Source: Limimaricola cinnabarinus (lineage in GTDB: Bacteria > Pseudomonadota > Alphaproteobacteria > Rhodobacterales > Rhodobacteraceae). Taken from it: a stretch of 64,000 nucleotides of DNA. Positions 259 to 8,219 of this stretch are shown piece by piece. A program made the translations under genes and the position numbers. The notes under the pieces were generated by a model. It did not search any database and was not told where the DNA came from. It saw nothing but the letters and a program-made list of their open reading frames with translations. Location of the stretch: contig NZ_KZ304951.1 in the NCBI RefSeq assembly GCF_002723615.1, forward strand, positions 83,344 through 147,343. Direction: 5' to 3'. The stretch's first letter is position 1; the number at the start of each line of letters is the position of its first letter.

Positions 259-274
259 GGCTCTGTTGCGCAAA
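259..274 (+). repeat. Left terminal inverted repeat of the IS5-family element
   Basis: GGCTCTGTTGCGCAAA, matching the complement of 1295-1310 at 15 of 16 positions. This is the end sequence typical of IS903-like elements. Confidence 0.8.
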
Positions 275-312
275 ACGGGTGATGGCCGAGGTGCCCCTTT
301 CCCCAAACGGAC

Positions 313-1246
313 TTATCCTACGACCTCTGTCACAGGTATGCCGAGCGCGGTGAAGCCGTTGAGCACGGCAATGCGGATCTGGAGCTCGGCGACCTGACGA
401 TCGAAGTCCCGGGCCATGAGGCTTTGGCCCAGTAGCTTCACACAGTGCATCTTCGTCTCGACGCGGTTTCGGCGGTGATACCCGCTCCAATGGCGCCATA
501 GGGATCGGCCCAGATACTTTGACGCCCTGAGGGCTTCGTTGCGGGCGATCGCCCCAGCGGAGCCGGGCTTCCAAGGCTTCGCATTCTTGCGCGGCGGGAT
601 GACCGCATGCGCCCCCCGATGCGACGGCGTCATGGCACTTGCGCGTATCGTAAGCGCCGTCTGCCGTGACCGAGCCAATGTCTTGGTTGCTGGGGATCTG
701 GTCCAGCAGTTCAGGAAGCATGGGGGCATCGCCGACATGGCTCCCCGTAATCTCGACCGCCCGAACCTCCAGCGTGTCCTCGTCGATCCCGAGGTGGATC
801 TTGCGCCACAGGCGTCGCATTGGCCCGCCGTGCTTGCGCGCGTGCCATTCGCCTTCCCCTTCGGCTTTGATCCCAGTGCTGTCGATCAGCAAATGCAGCG
901 GACCCGGTGAGCCGCGATAGGGGATGTTCACGGCCAGCGCCTTCTGGCGCCGGCACAGGGTGCTGAAGTCTGGCACCACCCAGTCCAGGCCGATCAGCTG
1001 CAAAAGGCTCTCGACGAAGCCCGTTGTCTGGCGGAGCGCCGGGCCGAACAGCGATTTCATCGTCAGGCAGACCTGAATGGCGGCGTCGCTGTAGCTCTGC
1101 TGGCGCCTCCTGTTGCCGCTCGGTGGCGGCGTCCAGACCATGCCGGGATCGAACCAGATCGTCAGGGAGCCACGCTTCTTCAGGGCTGCGTTATAATCAG
1201 ACCAATTCCTGGTCTTGTAGCTCGGCGGCTTGGATCTGCTGCTCAT
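313..1246 (-). pseudogene. IS5-family transposase, frameshifted
   Basis: From the ATG at 1246 the frame reads an IS903-type DDE transposase: MSSRSKPPSYKTRNW at the start, then LLIDSTGIKAEGEG with the first catalytic Asp, and ADGAYDTRKCHD with the second. Near 611-624 the frame breaks. The rest of the protein, including the Y-R-E-K signature (YHRRNRVETKMHC) with the catalytic Glu, continues in another frame to the stop at 313. The junction reads as though two bases were lost: family members usually have a residue such as Asp between AVA and RGAHAV. Programmed frameshifting is known for some IS5 subgroups but IS903-like members use a single frame, so I read this as an inactivating mutation. The intact protein would be about 310 residues. 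Confidence 0.85.
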
Positions 1247-1294
1247 GCGCGCCCGCTATCATGCTGCTTCCAAGAGATGAATCCCGTCAGCCTG

Positions 1295-1310
1295 TTTGCA
1301 CAACAGAGCC
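1295..1310 (-). repeat. Right terminal inverted repeat of the IS5-family element
   Basis: Read on the minus strand it is GGCTCTGTTGTGCAAA, one mismatch from the left end. It lies on the transposase start side. Confidence 0.8.
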
Positions 1311-1328: not shown

Positions 1329-3023
1329 CTATCCAGCGGCTTCACCCTGTTCTACTTGAAAAAATCCCGATTGCTCTAAGCAGCTTCGAAGGAGCGACAT
1401 AAGCTCCTGACTCACCAGAGCTTCAAGATTTCGCCTACCACCGGGTTGCTGAGAAAGGCGGTCATTCAAATTTGATATCAACTTCTTGCCATACGCCCGC
1501 TCAAGATTTGCGCCTTCGTTTTCCGGCCAAAGCTCATTCGTGTTCGGACTCCCACCGTCCTTCCAAAATTTTTGATTTGCTTCTTGGCGTTTCTTCCGGA
1601 ATTTGGCCCGAAAGTCGTTTGCGCTGCGATCTATTTCTTCTTGAACAATTTGCCGGCATTCGAATTCACCGAGATCATAAACCGCAGCAACATGAGCTGG
1701 TGTGCAATGGTAGGATTCAATATCGCAAAGGGGAGGGGAGAAGACCAACATGTCGCGGTTTATATAATCCGCACCCCACATATTCACCTCAGCATCAATC
1801 ATGAAATCTCGATCCCGGTGAACAATGATGAGCGGGTTATTCTCATACAGATCAGCCATCGCTTTAATTGCTACGGACGAAGCCGCATTATTGATGCCGT
1901 TGTATGAGATTACTTTAATTCGCTCTGACAATCCCAAGCTCTCGACGCAGTTCTCCAGCGCTCTCTTGCCTTTGTCCTCGGTGCAAATGATGCAGTCTGC
2001 TCCTTGTGAGTCGAGTTGATCCAAGGCGCCAAGGTCCATGAGAACGCTGGCCAGATCTTTGCATTCATCCGACTCTATTTTCCCATCCTTCATCCATACG
2101 ATCTTCGCAGTAGATGATGCGGCAGCGACCAAGTGCCGACTGTGAGTGGTGACGACAATTGTTGATCCATACAGCTCTGATAGCTTATCAAAAGTCTTGG
2201 CCAGTATCGCTTGACGTGACGGGTGAAGGTGATTGTCAGGCTCATCAACTAATAGAAATTTGGGTTCGAAGAGGCACACATAAGCAACAATTTGAACCAG
2301 TTGAAGAATGCCAGTTCCAGTTAAGTCAATTGGAACACTCTTGCCTCCGCCCTGAGAAAACTGCACGTCCACGAATAGATCTCTTTCTGCATCATGGCTG
2401 ATGTAGATTTTGCAGTTGCCGATGATGTCCTTGAGGATATCCTCAACTTCTAAAATCTTATCTGATTCGTCCAGAATTCTAATGATATTCCTAAATACGA
2501 GATTGGCTTCTCCTCCGGCGGCCTTCAGGAAAACTGAGGCGTAATTTTTGTGCTCCTCTCTGTGAGGGATTCCAGATATTCCGGGAACGAACACCGAAAA
2601 CATACTCTTAGGGTCGCAGATCTCCTGCCCAAACCCGGCATACGTTCCACTCCTATCTACTCCAACACTCCCGTAGTTTCTACCTTTGTAAATCTCAACG
2701 CGGTAGCTTGCGACAGTGCCGTCATTCGCGGTTCCCGTAAACTCAATGCGCCCGCGTGATCCAGTGGCTTTATTTTCATAAGGAGCGCTGTGACCAAGCA
2801 GAGTGAATTCTGAAGTCGGTGAGTATCTCAGCTCAGCCTCGGGGAGAACTTGCTCCTTCCGTTCGAGAGAAAGCTTTGCGCATGATGCGGCCATATGAAT
2901 GGCTTGAAGAACACTGCTCTTTCCGGAATTATTGCCCCCAACAATGTAATTGACTTTCGATAGAGGTATTTCGACTTCGGAGATTCTTTTGAAGTTCTCG
3001 ATTTTAATATTCGTTACATCCAA
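1329..3023 (-). CDS. OLD-like AAA ATPase with TOPRIM-like nuclease domain
   Basis: A predicted ATP-driven nuclease of the OLD (overcoming lysogenization defect) type. With the TTG start at 3023 (564 aa), residues 1-35 hold the N-terminal strand and Walker A (GGNNSGKSS, Lys35). Walker B (KFLLVDEPDNHLHP, Asp260-Glu261) and the H-loop His294 follow. The C-terminal half has TOPRIM-like residues: Glu349 in ICTEDKG and an Asp-x-Asp at 404/406 in HRDRDF. I prefer this start because AAGAAGG lies about 9 nt upstream and the family begins about ten residues before the first strand. An ATG at 3197 in the same frame lies upstream of a -10-like TATACT, so it is less likely. Base composition is much richer in A+T than the neighbours, a sign of transfer. 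OLD proteins occur in phage-defence systems such as Gabija; no UvrD-like GajB partner is adjacent, so a defence role is inferred. Confidence 0.8.
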   Translation of the reverse strand: MDVTNIKIENFKRISEVEIPLSKVNYIVGGNNSGKSSVLQAIHMAASCAKLSLERKEQVLPEAELRYSPTSEFTLLGHSAPYENKATGSRGRIEFTGTANDGTVASYRVEIYKGRNYGSVGVDRSGTYAGFGQEICDPKSMFSVFVPGISGIPHREEHKNYASVFLKAAGGEANLVFRNIIRILDESDKILEVEDILKDIIGNCKIYISHDAERDLFVDVQFSQGGGKSVPIDLTGTGILQLVQIVAYVCLFEPKFLLVDEPDNHLHPSRQAILAKTFDKLSELYGSTIVVTTHSRHLVAAASSTAKIVWMKDGKIESDECKDLASVLMDLGALDQLDSQGADCIICTEDKGKRALENCVESLGLSERIKVISYNGINNAASSVAIKAMADLYENNPLIIVHRDRDFMIDAEVNMWGADYINRDMLVFSPPLCDIESYHCTPAHVAAVYDLGEFECRQIVQEEIDRSANDFRAKFRKKRQEANQKFWKDGGSPNTNELWPENEGANLERAYGKKLISNLNDRLSQQPGGRRNLEALVSQELMSLLRSCLEQSGFFQVEQGEAAG

Positions 3024-3150
3024 AGCGGAAGACCTTCTTTTTGTGATGCGCGTGGGAGTGCAAATTACGGATTGCGGAGTGAGTTGCAGGTTGCGAGGGG
3101 TGATGTAGAAATTCAGCAGTTGCGAGGCAGCAACGCACCTATCCGTGTTA

Positions 3151-3156
3151 AGTATA
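3151..3156 (-). promoter_or_regulatory. Possible -10 box for the OLD-like gene
   Basis: TATACT on the minus strand, in an AT-rich stretch about 128 nt upstream of the preferred TTG start. The -35 side is weak (CTAATT-like at 17 bp). It would leave a 5' leader of about 120 nt and argues against translation from the ATG at 3197. Confidence 0.3.
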
Positions 3157-3232
3157 GCATTTTGGGTCGGTAGAATTAGTGTTCTGTGTGACGGCATTTA
3201 GGCGGGTGGCCTATGGTCGCTTGGGGCTGAAA

Positions 3233-4669
3233 CTACGGATCGGCCAGGCGCCAGAACCCATGCTTGCGGCCGTGCTCCTGCTTGAGCACCTCGAGAAACC
3301 GCGCGTGTGAGGGGAAGTCGCCGTAATCCGCGATGGCGGCGTCGCAGGAGCGGCATTCGGCCAGATGCCGCGCCGCGTGACGATAGCGCTTAGACTTGCC
3401 CCCGTTCAGCGTGTCCAAAACCATGGCGCGCCGCATGAGCGTCGCGGCGAGCGGATGCCCGGCCTCGAGCGCATCGGCCGCTGTCGTGAGGGTATGGTAG
3501 GAGTTCCCATTCAGCTCGTCGGCTCGGGATAGCACGACCCGTGCCGCGCGGTCGTGAGACGGCCAATCGGCAAGGAAACCGATCGCTGCCTCCAGGTGCG
3601 GAAAGGCCTCCGCAAGATCCAGAGCCGACTCTTCGGCCTCGAAGTCCTCGAAGTCGGGCAGCAGCTTCAGATACTTGCGGAGGCAGGGCGTGCTGAGGGT
3701 CTGCTCGAACGCCCCTTTCAGATGGGCCTTCAATTCCTCCGTCCTGCCCTGCCGCTCGAGGCATTCTTCGAAGACCGCGTCGAGATCGTGGCGGAACATC
3801 CGGAACGGTTTGCCGTCTTCGCTGGCGCGGGCACGGACGACGATGTCGTAAGCCTCGTCGACCCGTCCCGCGTCCAGCAAGCGCCGGGCCACGTCGGGGG
3901 CGATGGTGCCATAGGTCAGCTGTTCCGCGGAATAGCGGGCCATGTAGGCGTCGACATCCCCCTGGGCGTCCGCGACATCCGCCAGGATGATCGACCGCGT
4001 AGCTTGCTTGTTGCGGCGCACGCTGTCTTCGGCAGAAGACCTAAGGCCATAGCCCTGGTATTGCTCGAGCTCATGCTCGGTCGGTGCCGCTTCGGCCCAG
4101 GCTTGCGTGATGCCTTTAAGATGCTCCAGCCCCTCCTGGCCGAGCGCCTCCGCCGTCGCGGGAATGATCCCGTCGAACTCTCCGTAGCCGGCTCCGGCGA
4201 CCGCGTCGAGAACGCGCTCGGCCAGGGCGGTGCGGTTCTTGGAAATCCTGGGCGATATCTCCGCGATCAGGTCCACCGCGTCACTCATGACGCCGCCGAC
4301 CGCGCCGTTGCTGTCATCCGTGCGCGCGTAGATCGAGGGGGCGAGCTGCAGGAAAGACCAGAGCAGTTCGAAAGCCTCGTCCGGGTCCTGCGGGACGATG
4401 TTGGTTTCGATCATTCTCAGCAGGCCTTCGAGATCCTTGACCAGCGTCCTTTGCTTGCGCCAGTCGACAAAGCCAGTCGCGCGGCGCAGCGAAGCGAAGC
4501 GTTTGCGCAGATCGGCAGCAACATCCCCGGGGCCCTGGGCGGCGCTGAGTTCCATCCGTGCGCGACGCTGAAGGGCCGCACTCCCCTGAACCAGCTCCAT
4601 GACCAGGGCGGCGAGCTTTTCCGCCCCCAGCTTCTCGAGGTTGGTCTGGTTCAAGGTCTTCTTGGACAT
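3233..4669 (-). CDS. DUF6880 family protein
   Basis: A 478-residue protein beginning MSKKTLNQTNLEKLGAEKLA, the typical opening of DUF6880 proteins. FVDWRKQRTLVKDLEGL and a helical repeat-like body rich in Leu, Ala and Glu follow, and the C-terminal HGRKHGFWRLADP is also a family hallmark. The frame is open for 71 more codons upstream, but that part resembles no family member, so I start at the ATG at 4669. No signal peptide or membrane segment is visible. The family has no known function. It lies on the same strand as and upstream of the OLD-like gene, but GC content here is normal for the genome, so the two may have come separately. Family call is good; role unknown. Confidence 0.8.
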   Translation of the reverse strand: MSKKTLNQTNLEKLGAEKLAALVMELVQGSAALQRRARMELSAAQGPGDVAADLRKRFASLRRATGFVDWRKQRTLVKDLEGLLRMIETNIVPQDPDEAFELLWSFLQLAPSIYARTDDSNGAVGGVMSDAVDLIAEISPRISKNRTALAERVLDAVAGAGYGEFDGIIPATAEALGQEGLEHLKGITQAWAEAAPTEHELEQYQGYGLRSSAEDSVRRNKQATRSIILADVADAQGDVDAYMARYSAEQLTYGTIAPDVARRLLDAGRVDEAYDIVVRARASEDGKPFRMFRHDLDAVFEECLERQGRTEELKAHLKGAFEQTLSTPCLRKYLKLLPDFEDFEAEESALDLAEAFPHLEAAIGFLADWPSHDRAARVVLSRADELNGNSYHTLTTAADALEAGHPLAATLMRRAMVLDTLNGGKSKRYRHAARHLAECRSCDAAIADYGDFPSHARFLEVLKQEHGRKHGFWRLADP

Positions 4670-5023
4670 GGCGTCAGGTCTGGCTTTGTTGCAATGCGTC
4701 CTGCGGACCATGTCGCACAGGTCTTCTTGCAACAAGCGCCAATGGTGGCTTTTGGGGGAGCCACGCGACGTGGTCTGACGGCGAATGAGACGCGCATTCT
4801 GGCACAGCGAAATGTTAAGGCGTTCGTGGAAGACGCGTCGGCCAGCATTGCCAATCCGATGCACCGATGAGGCAGGGCACACGTCGATTGCAGCAGTGCT
4901 AATATTTTGGCGTTGGCAGCAGGCCTCAGAACGGCTGCGTCATGGGCTACGGGCGGCCGTTCCTCGGGCTATCATCCCATACGGCGGCCTGAATGCGGAG
5001 GTAGGCATTTGCCACCCAGCAGG
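4670..5023. other. Intergenic gap in the island
   Basis: About 350 bp between the DUF6880 start and the stop of the 247-codon gene. Open frames here are extensions or shadows without recognisable content. I looked for a second copy of the tRNA-Asn 3' end and did not see one. The promoter of the DUF6880 gene is presumably here, but no convincing -35/-10 pair stands out. Confidence 0.4.
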
Positions 5024-5767
5024 TCACGACCGGTAGGATACCGCCTTTCTTCTGCGGCGGCTGCGCTCCTCTTCTTGCAGACGGCACAGCTGCTCGTCCA
5101 TTCGCTCAAGCTCAGACAGGTCTAAGCGCCTCTGCTTTTCGTTCACGAGCTCTTTATAATACCGCATCGCATTGCCGTAGCAGGCCAGTTCAGAAATGGG
5201 GGTGGATTTAATAAGCACGTCCCGCATTATTCTGATACTTTCTGCGATTTGGCAATCCAAGTTCCGGTCAGTCAGCCATAAGAGTGCCTTTCTATGCGCT
5301 TTCTCTGTTGCGTGGTCGCTTCGCATTTTTGATAACTCTGGACCATTGCGAATTGCGCGGAGGATGTGGAGATGCCGGTCGAACATGCGCGACATTCGCT
5401 GGGGAACTTGCAATTCCGCAATGGCTTGGCGCACAAAGGCCTCGATTTCTGGCCAGGGTTTCCAGGGTTGCTCCCCATCAAGGAGGGGGAGCAAGAAACA
5501 CGGATCCCCCATGTCGAGGGGAAGCGAAATGGAGCCTTCGACCGGGCCACGCCATTTCGGTTCGTAGGTGGCCGCGATCGATAGGACTGCGCCATCGTAT
5601 CGGACTGTCACGCGGGTCGGCCGGGCGGATGGGGGATGCGCAAGGCCGGAGGCTGCGAAAGAGCCGTTTTCATGGGTCACTTCGAGGGGGCCTGAACCCG
5701 CGCGTCCGAGAGCCCCTGGAGCAAGATGCTTGCTCGTCGAGTTTGATTTGGGCTTATTTTGCGTCAT
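5024..5767 (-). CDS. Unknown protein translationally coupled to the integrase
   Basis: A 247-residue protein I do not recognise. Its ATG (5767) overlaps the integrase stop by 4 nt (ATGA), so both are surely co-transcribed and probably translationally coupled. The first 45 residues are low-complexity and polar. A middle section of alternating beta-type residues follows (TRVTVRYDGAVLSIAATYEP) with PWKPWPEIEAFVRQAIAEL after it, then a helical C-terminal half with a charged tail rich in Arg and Glu that may bind nucleic acid or form a coiled coil. No membrane segment is seen. Its position suggests an accessory recombination function, for example a directionality or partner protein, but this is only inferred from context. 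Confidence 0.7.
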   Translation of the reverse strand: MTQNKPKSNSTSKHLAPGALGRAGSGPLEVTHENGSFAASGLAHPPSARPTRVTVRYDGAVLSIAATYEPKWRGPVEGSISLPLDMGDPCFLLPLLDGEQPWKPWPEIEAFVRQAIAELQVPQRMSRMFDRHLHILRAIRNGPELSKMRSDHATEKAHRKALLWLTDRNLDCQIAESIRIMRDVLIKSTPISELACYGNAMRYYKELVNEKQRRLDLSELERMDEQLCRLQEEERSRRRRKAVSYRS

Positions 5768-8019
5768 GACTTGCTCCCGTGCGCCAAGCGCAGACCTTGC
5801 ACTTCCTGCGGCCGTTCTGGGAATCCCGGGATCGGGCTTTGCACCCGTTCTGGGTCGAACGGAATCTTCTTTACCTGGTCGAAGAGGCTCGCGATGCTTA
5901 TTCCCTTCTGGGCGTAGGCACGTTCTCCTTCGTCGAGAGGCTCGTGGCCCATCAGTTTTCGCCGGTGCGCCCCCGGACAGGATCCATCCACCAAGCGGTG
6001 GTGGAACGTGGTGCGCAGAGCGTGGAAATCAAGGCCATGCCAGTAGACGTCATTGGTGCGGCGGTAGTAGCCGAAGGCCTTGGTGAAATTTTCGGTAAGT
6101 GTCCCCTTGTTCGCCCCACGCGTGAGCGAGGGAAAAAGGCGGCGATCTCCTCTTTTCCTGGCGCGCTCCACGAGTTCCATGAAGCCGAGGTCGATCAAGG
6201 CGGGATGCACCGGGATCTTGCGGGTCGCATTCTCCGACTTGACGCTATCGCCCAAGGCTTGGCGAACGATCAGGTAGGCAATCCCTTCATCGGATTGGAC
6301 ATCATCCGGTCCGGCTTGGGCGGCTTCTTCCATCCGCGTGCCCATCAGGTAGCCGATCAGCGGCATCCAAAACAGGGGATCAGCTTCATCTGCGGCATTG
6401 CCTTTGAATACTCGGGTTGCGAATAGCTCATTGAGGCGGTCATCCCAAGGTTGGCGCGCTACGTTTTCCTCGGTCATTTTCAGGGCCTTCGCTTCACGAT
6501 TGGAAAAGGTGCAGATGCTGAACGGATTCGTTCCCACGAGGCCGAGCTGCTCGAGCATCGTGCCAACCCTGTTGGCCATGCGAACGATGCGCATATAGGT
6601 CTCTGCCCGAAGACGCGGTTCGGCATGTGCGAGACGCGCATCTCGAATCTCGGCTTCGTTGTTGCAGCCTTGTCGCCGCAGTTCCCGTTCTGCGTTATCC
6701 ATCGCCTGGGCTTCACGCGCTTCGACCTTTGCGATCAGTGCCGGGTAGCTCTCGGCCGTGTATTTCTTTCCTTTGCCATGAAGTCTCGGGAGACTGCGGA
6801 TGACATTGATGGCGGCCTCGATCTCTTCTTCAGGGATCTCGGTGAATACTTTGGAGCCCAGTGGCTCCGCCCAGATTTTCAGGCTTGTCTTCGCCGAGGC
6901 GCCCGACGACTTGACCCACTTTCGCCCCACGGCGGCATCGGGACGCTGATACTTGTGCCATTCGTCGGCGAAGCCTGCTTCCTTCAGTTTGAGGTAGAAG
7001 TCGGCTGCTCTGTCGAACGTGATTGGTTCGCCGCTCTCGAGGCTTGCAAGGAGCTCGGGCGGGCAGCTTTGGAGAACCCCGCGTTTTTTCAAGAGATCTC
7101 TGACAGCTGGTTTCTCGGTCGGCGTTTCCTCGGGCCCCGATTTTTCATGTGCGGGCTCGCATGAGGCAAACCGGGATGGGGGGAACAGTTTCGTGGCAAC
7201 TTCCTTGTCGATGAGACGTTCGGCGATGGCCGAGGCGGTTGATTGCGCGGGAATGCCCGGGGATGTTTCCTCGGCGATCGCGCGGACGAAGTAGGGGCTG
7301 GGACTGGGGAAGATGCCCCGGTCCCGCCGGGCCTTCTCCTCGCTGGCATCCAGCAGCACGCGCGTGGCCTCGTAGGCCAGTAGCCGCGCCTGTTCGCTGC
7401 CCGCTTCGGGGAGCTCGATGCCCAGATGCGCGGCGACATGGCGCAGCGGCTCCTCCACCACGGTGTAATCCTGCTGGAAGAAGGCTTGCCGCAGAACGGC
7501 CTGCCGGGCCGCTTCCCGTTCCAGGGCCGCCTGCGCGAGCTGGGGGGATCGCGGATCGGCCAAGGCACGTTCGCGATCGGCCGCCTCGATCTCGAAGCGG
7601 GCGAGTGCGGTCAGGAGGCGGGTGACGTCTTGGGGTGACAGGTTCATCGTGGCGGTGGCGTAGAGGAATATCTGATCGCTGAGGGTGCTGAGCCTGCGGG
7701 CAAGCTCCGCGGCCACCGAAAAGCCATGGGTCTTGAGGGAAAGACATAAGGGGATTCCCCCAAACAGGGTTTGATTCCCCGAATTCTCCTCTTGCGTCTC
7801 GGCAACGAGCTTTGAACGGGTCATGTCGTTACAGAGAATCCGATTCTCTTCGCAGGCTTTGATGCGAACCGAGGCGAAAACCGCCGCCTTTTCAGCTTTC
7901 ACGGGTTGCCCGAGTCGCAGAACCGATCGCGGGAGTCGCCGCCGCCAGACGTAGCCTTGGGCGCGCAGTTCGAGATGGGGGATATGGGCGTGTTTGGAAC
8001 GGGCAAGGGGCACCGGCAC
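5764..8019 (-). CDS. Large tyrosine-type site-specific recombinase (island integrase)
   Basis: A 751-residue integrase predicted to catalyse excision and integration at the adjacent tRNA-Asn gene. The catalytic domain is C-terminal: Arg562 in GTRMEEAAQ, His666 and Arg669 in DFHALRTTF, His692 in KLMGHE and the nucleophile Tyr702 in ERAYAQKG. The N-terminus has a pattern like DUF6538 (YVWRRRLPRSV near residue 24, then LSLKTHGFSVAAELARRLS after an insertion), a DNA-binding extension seen in many alphaproteobacterial integrases. Between about residues 120 and 380 lies a long helical section, so the protein is nearly twice the length of a simple phage integrase. The gene starts about 125 bp from the tRNA 3' end and reads away from it. 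All catalytic residues seem present, so the enzyme may be active. Confidence 0.88.
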   Translation of the reverse strand: MPVPLARSKHAHIPHLELRAQGYVWRRRLPRSVLRLGQPVKAEKAAVFASVRIKACEENRILCNDMTRSKLVAETQEENSGNQTLFGGIPLCLSLKTHGFSVAAELARRLSTLSDQIFLYATATMNLSPQDVTRLLTALARFEIEAADRERALADPRSPQLAQAALEREAARQAVLRQAFFQQDYTVVEEPLRHVAAHLGIELPEAGSEQARLLAYEATRVLLDASEEKARRDRGIFPSPSPYFVRAIAEETSPGIPAQSTASAIAERLIDKEVATKLFPPSRFASCEPAHEKSGPEETPTEKPAVRDLLKKRGVLQSCPPELLASLESGEPITFDRAADFYLKLKEAGFADEWHKYQRPDAAVGRKWVKSSGASAKTSLKIWAEPLGSKVFTEIPEEEIEAAINVIRSLPRLHGKGKKYTAESYPALIAKVEAREAQAMDNAERELRRQGCNNEAEIRDARLAHAEPRLRAETYMRIVRMANRVGTMLEQLGLVGTNPFSICTFSNREAKALKMTEENVARQPWDDRLNELFATRVFKGNAADEADPLFWMPLIGYLMGTRMEEAAQAGPDDVQSDEGIAYLIVRQALGDSVKSENATRKIPVHPALIDLGFMELVERARKRGDRRLFPSLTRGANKGTLTENFTKAFGYYRRTNDVYWHGLDFHALRTTFHHRLVDGSCPGAHRRKLMGHEPLDEGERAYAQKGISIASLFDQVKKIPFDPERVQSPIPGFPERPQEVQGLRLAHGSKS

Positions 8020-8114: not shown

Positions 8115-8144
8115 CCGTTTGTTTCCAACCATTTACTTAGTGGT

Positions 8145-8219
8145 TGGCTCCGGCGGTAGGGATCGAACCTACGACCAATTGATTAACAGTCAACTGCTCT
8201 ACCGCTGAGCTACGCCGGA
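8145..8219 (-). tRNA. tRNA-Asn (GTT)
   Basis: Minus-strand cloverleaf starting TCCGGCGTAGCTCAG and ending GCCGGAGCCA with encoded CCA. The acceptor stem TCCGGCG/CGCCGGA pairs fully, the T-arm GGTTCGATCC is present, and the anticodon loop has GTT (plus-strand AAC at 8185-8187). It is the likely attachment site of the island: the integrase lies just beyond its 3' end. Confidence 0.95.

Follow-up and report, generated by a model that had tools for sequence, protein, structure and literature searches.

The locus raised the question of whether a solitary gene of foreign base composition, which joins an OLD-like ATPase to a TOPRIM domain, could be a complete defence system in itself and, if so, where it stands among the known ATPase-TOPRIM systems. 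The gene was analysed within a stretch of 64,000 nucleotides of Limimaricola cinnabarinus DNA (hereafter, the window), in which the following features are relevant:

259..1310, no strand assigned: IS5-family element with 16-bp terminal repeats and a frameshifted transposase (NF033579 covers only part of the ORF)
1329..3023, minus strand: gene of the ATPase-TOPRIM fusion protein (564 aa), with TTG as start codon and its stop codon at 1329-1331 (from ORF, ribosome-binding site, end of homology and alignments)
3233..4672, minus strand: DUF6880 gene (PF21810, 538 bits), a neighbour, not a partner
5764..8019, minus strand: the island's large tyrosine integrase, matched weakly by Pfam (PF00589, E=3e-4)
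8145..8219, minus strand: tRNA-Asn (gtt), integration site, with 8144-8161 repeated exactly at genome position C1:59261

Position and Start of the Gene

The preliminary description had assigned the gene to 1329-3232. The gene is real, but it lies on the minus strand and spans 1329-3023, and the proposed end at 3232 falls beyond the reading frame. In the ORF listing the longest minus-strand reading frame at this locus covers 1329-3197, so that 3198-3232 is non-coding for this gene. As judged from the ribosome-binding site and the end of homology, the TTG at 3023 is the likely start codon: AAGAAGG precedes it with a spacing of nine bases, the DNA similarity to Paracoccus halophilus (79.5%) is limited to 1375-3036 and ends at 3036, and the P. 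halophilus homologue (L004) starts at the same residue. The G+C content of the gene was 0.472, compared to 0.652 in the DUF6880 gene, 0.609 in the integrase gene and 0.686 in the window to the right of the tRNA, which confirmed that it is richer in A+T than its neighbours; its foreign origin was likewise supported. The right end of the IS5-family element is located 18 bp beyond the stop codon.

Domains and Catalytic Residues

The protein consists of an ABC-type ATPase followed by a TOPRIM domain in one chain. Pfam searches detected AAA_15 and AAA_21 over residues 1-300, both above cut-off (102 and 77.7 bits), and the ATPase is related to RecF/SMC. The C-terminal half had no convincing Pfam match, and no Pfam or PADLOC model names it. 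The motifs of both domains, located in family alignments, are:

2913..2939, minus strand: Walker A, GGNNSGKSS, residues 29-37 (K35)
2220..2258, minus strand: Walker B, FLLVDEPDNHLHP, residues 256-268 (D260/E261), confirmed as LLVDEPDNHLHP
2133..2147, minus strand: H-loop, THSRH, residues 293-297 (H294)
1974..1979, minus strand: TOPRIM motif 1, E349-D350 (TED), invariant in the family alignments
1806..1820, minus strand: TOPRIM Asp-x-Asp, HRDRD, residues 402-406, with H402, D404 and D406 invariant in 30 sequences
1716..1724, minus strand: third acidic motif, D434-x-E436, with E436 invariant and D434 conserved in at least 90%, aligning with the Glu of DUF4435
1485..1487, minus strand: conserved C-terminal Lys, K513 (GK), nearly invariant in alignments A1 and A3 and invariant in A2

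Walker A, Walker B, the H-loop, the TOPRIM glutamate (E349) and Asp-x-Asp (D404/D406), all of them read earlier from the sequence, were present, and the catalytic residues of both domains showed no or almost no variation in 30 full-length relatives and in alignments of 18 and 14 sequences. In the numbering of alignment A3, which holds 30 C-terminal halves, E24, D25, H77, D79, D81 and E111 were invariant. The DxE (D434/E436) and the C-terminal GK (K513) come in addition to the residues recognised at first. An AlphaFold2 model computed with 14 sequences (mean pLDDT 86, pTM 0.64) predicted a strand-helix-strand-helix-strand-helix order for the TOPRIM half, with strands at 344-348, 369-373 and 398-402 alternating with helices, a short strand at 426-428, the Glu after strand 1 and the DxD after strand 3. 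This predicted order is the one expected for a TOPRIM domain and, together with the profile comparison described below, supports the term TOPRIM-like.

The Gene Lies in a tRNA-Asn Island with Defence Genes

A stretch of 18 bases at the tRNA-Asn 3' end (8144-8161) recurs exactly at C1:59261 (position 5261 of L103, the stretch that carries the island reverse transcriptase), where G+C drops from about 0.67 to about 0.57. This single short repeat, together with the drop in G+C, suggests an island of about 32 kb ending at window position 8161, with a tRNA-Arg gene about 0.45 kb outside its left end. Its cargo comprises a GmrSD-like gene, a Type ISP restriction-modification gene, a reverse transcriptase (RT), a second integrase, transposons, the ATPase-TOPRIM and DUF6880 genes and the integrase of the window. 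At the left end (L103:6706-13719) the GmrSD-like gene (HEC-05-like) adjoins that of the Type ISP protein (1641 aa, PADLOC 2234 bits). The RT is encoded at L103:17546-18943 (C1:71546-72943; PADLOC RT 117 bits, DRT UG17 115 bits), about 12 kb from the ATPase-TOPRIM gene with transposons in between. In a genome of another genus (G149), a relative of the 5764-8019 integrase lies beside the same tRNA-Asn site, with a second partial tRNA copy, a 31%-identical ATPase-TOPRIM gene and an AbiJ-domain gene. The Type ISP system, the GmrSD-like gene and the RT in the same island support a defence setting for the gene.

Retron-linked OLD proteins (class 3, Eco8) likewise combine ATPase and TOPRIM, and an RT is present in the same island. 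Membership of this class was rejected: the RT is not adjacent, and an Rfam scan of L103 found no retron RNA.

No Partner Gene Recurs

Among 35 neighbourhoods of ATPase-TOPRIM genes the only recurring neighbour family was the tyrosine integrase (8 loci), although some loci had short flanks, so that a rare partner could escape notice. The earlier reading had found no adjacent partner except DUF6880, about 200 bp upstream and of different composition, and had proposed a survey of whether it recurs. The distance is 209 bp, on the same strand, and the gene never recurred in the other 34 neighbourhoods. DUF6880 was found in 14 of 120 genomes of the family, none of which, besides the own genome, also carries ATPase-TOPRIM. 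A system of two genes, in which DUF6880 or some other gene of the island would be the second and the protein might, for instance, act as effector of the island RT, would fit the upstream position and the shared island, but given the missing DUF6880, its independent carriers in the 120-genome sample, and the distance and transposons that separate the RT, we consider it very improbable. The view of a single-gene system was upheld.

The protein shares its ATPase-TOPRIM architecture with GajA of Gabija (OLD class 2). Gabija membership was rejected: no UvrD-like gajB is adjacent, the neighbours being the IS5 element and DUF6880, and, integrases apart, no neighbour gene recurred in the 35 loci.

Distribution, Mobility and Selection

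Carriers were found in 9 of 395 genomes of the host's family (own genome included), in one of the 8 genomes of its genus and in 7 of 398 genomes of the phylum; the spread is thin and patchy and reaches across phyla (Emticicia, Bacteroidota). Relatives occurred on 11 plasmids (coverage of at least 80% in 8), several of them near IS elements, restriction genes or integrases, and viral contigs yielded 12 long relatives; the phage records searched gave no match. Relatives with 50% identity reside in prophages, one copy (L049) between a tape-measure gene and portal and terminase genes, and others share viral contigs with genes for a terminase (L059), a tape-measure protein (L057), an integrase (L050) or a tail fibre (L051), a setting typical of prophage cargo. 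The P. halophilus protein is 86% identical to that of the window, and since the DNA in common is this gene alone, the gene moves alone. Comparison of both copies (dN 0.08, dS 1.8) gave a dN/dS of about 0.05, which is indicative only because dS is saturated, and which points to purifying selection with both halves constrained.

The analysis also weighed a housekeeping function in repair or chromosome maintenance, as the kinship of the ATPase with RecF/SMC might suggest. Two relatives (in G192 and G446) directly follow gyrB in the dnaA-dnaN-recF-gyrB cluster and one other adjoins carB, but the gene is absent from seven of the eight genomes of the genus, patchy, borne on plasmids and prophages, and foreign in G+C; we judge such a function highly unlikely. 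Relatives did not always lie in housekeeping contexts, the outcome named beforehand as speaking against a defence gene, but also on plasmids, in prophages, by integrases and at the tRNA-Asn island. The copies just past gyrB (L091, L097) belong to two bacterial families, and the site is possibly an insertion hotspot.

Relationship to OLD and PARIS Proteins

Class 1 OLD proteins are defined by their ATPase-TOPRIM order and an isolated gene (PMC10568477). As in P2 Old, TsOLD and YbjD/OldB, an ABC ATPase and a C-terminal TOPRIM are encoded here in one chain by a single gene, isolated in 35 neighbourhoods, and the whole-length profile gave 99.6% against OLD proteins. YbjD is a single-gene OLD protein with an anti-phage phenotype in which its TOPRIM is dispensable. 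The protein could be a class 1 OLD-type nuclease in the manner of T. scotoductus OLD or GajA, with an ATPase-regulated TOPRIM that attacks phage DNA directly by degradation or nicking. In hhalign comparisons, however, the TOPRIM half matched DUF4435, the domain of PARIS AriB, with 93.7% probability (score 55.8; Glu, DxD and DxE in register) and OLD TOPRIMs, which align in register weakly, with 4.9% (score 24.8), a gap of which part may reflect profile quality, since the OLD profile held six sequences only and the DUF4435 profile fourteen. The best of 40 column-shuffled decoys scored 17.4 and reversed profiles 12-17. A second OLD profile, built from ten full-length proteins, reached 12%, and the OLD TOPRIM family PF20469 was not among the matches to the TOPRIM half. 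These comparisons suggest that this half is clearly closer to AriB/DUF4435 than to OLD TOPRIMs. A PDB search with the full-length profile retrieved PtuA, OLD, GajA and AriA via the ATPase half, and one with the TOPRIM profile gave chance matches only.

In a tree of 60 proteins, the 30 family members grouped together with 100/99 support and separately from the nine OLD proteins and the nine fused DUF4435 proteins; the deep relations in this tree are unsure, given its long branches, the gathering of the family by similarity and a protein set without MAD3, NsnB and AbiL. The nearest group consisted of ATPases from Bacteroidota whose TOPRIM-like C-terminus is of the EG type. Bacteroidota relatives (L005-L019) have a similar ATPase and a TOPRIM-like end with LEGSTD and LENYF, in which Asp-x-Asp is apparently missing (LALFDRID). 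Of the original assignment to OLD-like ATPase-TOPRIM proteins, the chain of ATPase and TOPRIM holds, but class 1 or GajA is not the best place for the family, because its TOPRIM half is nearer AriB and it forms a clade of its own; a DNA-cutting class 1 nuclease of the OLD type is in our view rather unlikely.

PARIS proper would be a single-gene AriAB triggered by anti-restriction proteins. Fused AriAB (AAA_15/AAA_21 plus DUF4435) is known (PMC9122126), and the window protein resembles it in having ATPase then TOPRIM in one chain, aligned acidic motifs and a mobile defence setting; AAA_15 and AAA_21, either of which characterises PARIS, exceed their cut-offs, AriA was the best PADLOC match and DUF4435 the nearest TOPRIM. 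This assignment already fails on sequence: DUF4435 (PF14491, threshold 27 bits) was not detected in the window protein, where its likeness is of the remote profile kind, and matched only one of 30 relatives (E=0.046); fused DUF4435 proteins form another clade; and the motifs are TED and HRDRD in the family versus VEG and xDxD in PARIS. The PADLOC AriA models (02979/02980) seem generic, since their alignments fall on the stretches also covered by Pfam AAA_15/AAA_21, and the AriB model matched 3 of 30 relatives, weakly. We therefore hold PARIS membership to be improbable.

MADS MAD3/MAD4 and AbiL have a separate ATPase and a possible TOPRIM partner, in contrast to the one fused chain found here. 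The MAD3 model matched all 18 relatives scanned and the MAD4 model 5 of 30 TOPRIM halves. MAD4 was rejected as the nearest TOPRIM: among the nine genome matches collected there was one OLD protein, and a profile of the five short MAD4-like proteins gave no alignment with the TOPRIM of the family.

A Proposed Single-Gene Anti-Phage System

The analysis shows how the domains are ordered, that their catalytic residues are conserved, that the gene is under selection and mobile, and that it lacks a partner and lies in an island; we regard a role in defence as highly probable. It is also probable, with a little less assurance, that the gene is a one-gene anti-phage system akin to fused PARIS and OLD proteins, in which an ATPase sensor controls a TOPRIM nuclease acting by abortive infection. 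The roles of sensor and effector are given by analogy with AriAB (PMC12409363), in which AriB, once set free by the sensor AriA, acts as a tRNase, and with OLD (PMC10568477, PMC13261556). Modelled on these relatives, the N-terminal ABC ATPase (residues 1-325) would form an oligomer, bind ATP and keep the TOPRIM inactive; contact with a phage product would free or activate the C-terminal TOPRIM nuclease (326-564), which, with E349, D404/D406, E436, K513 and two metal ions, would cut nucleic acid, probably host tRNA, and growth of the infected cell would stop. The AriB-like TOPRIM slightly favours tRNA over DNA as the substrate, DNA cutting as in GajA being the other possibility.

At the level of sequence the family appears as a branch of its own, alongside OLD and PARIS. 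Tentatively, it may be an unrecognised single-gene ATPase-TOPRIM class between the two, in which an AriB-like tRNase is combined with its own sensor and a trigger unlike both. One-gene ATPase-TOPRIM systems are poorly understood, and having sensor and effector in one chain makes ATP gating and the trigger testable. Whether tRNA cutting is a general property of such nucleases could also be learned from a clade that is widespread, uncatalogued and equipped with an AriB-like TOPRIM.
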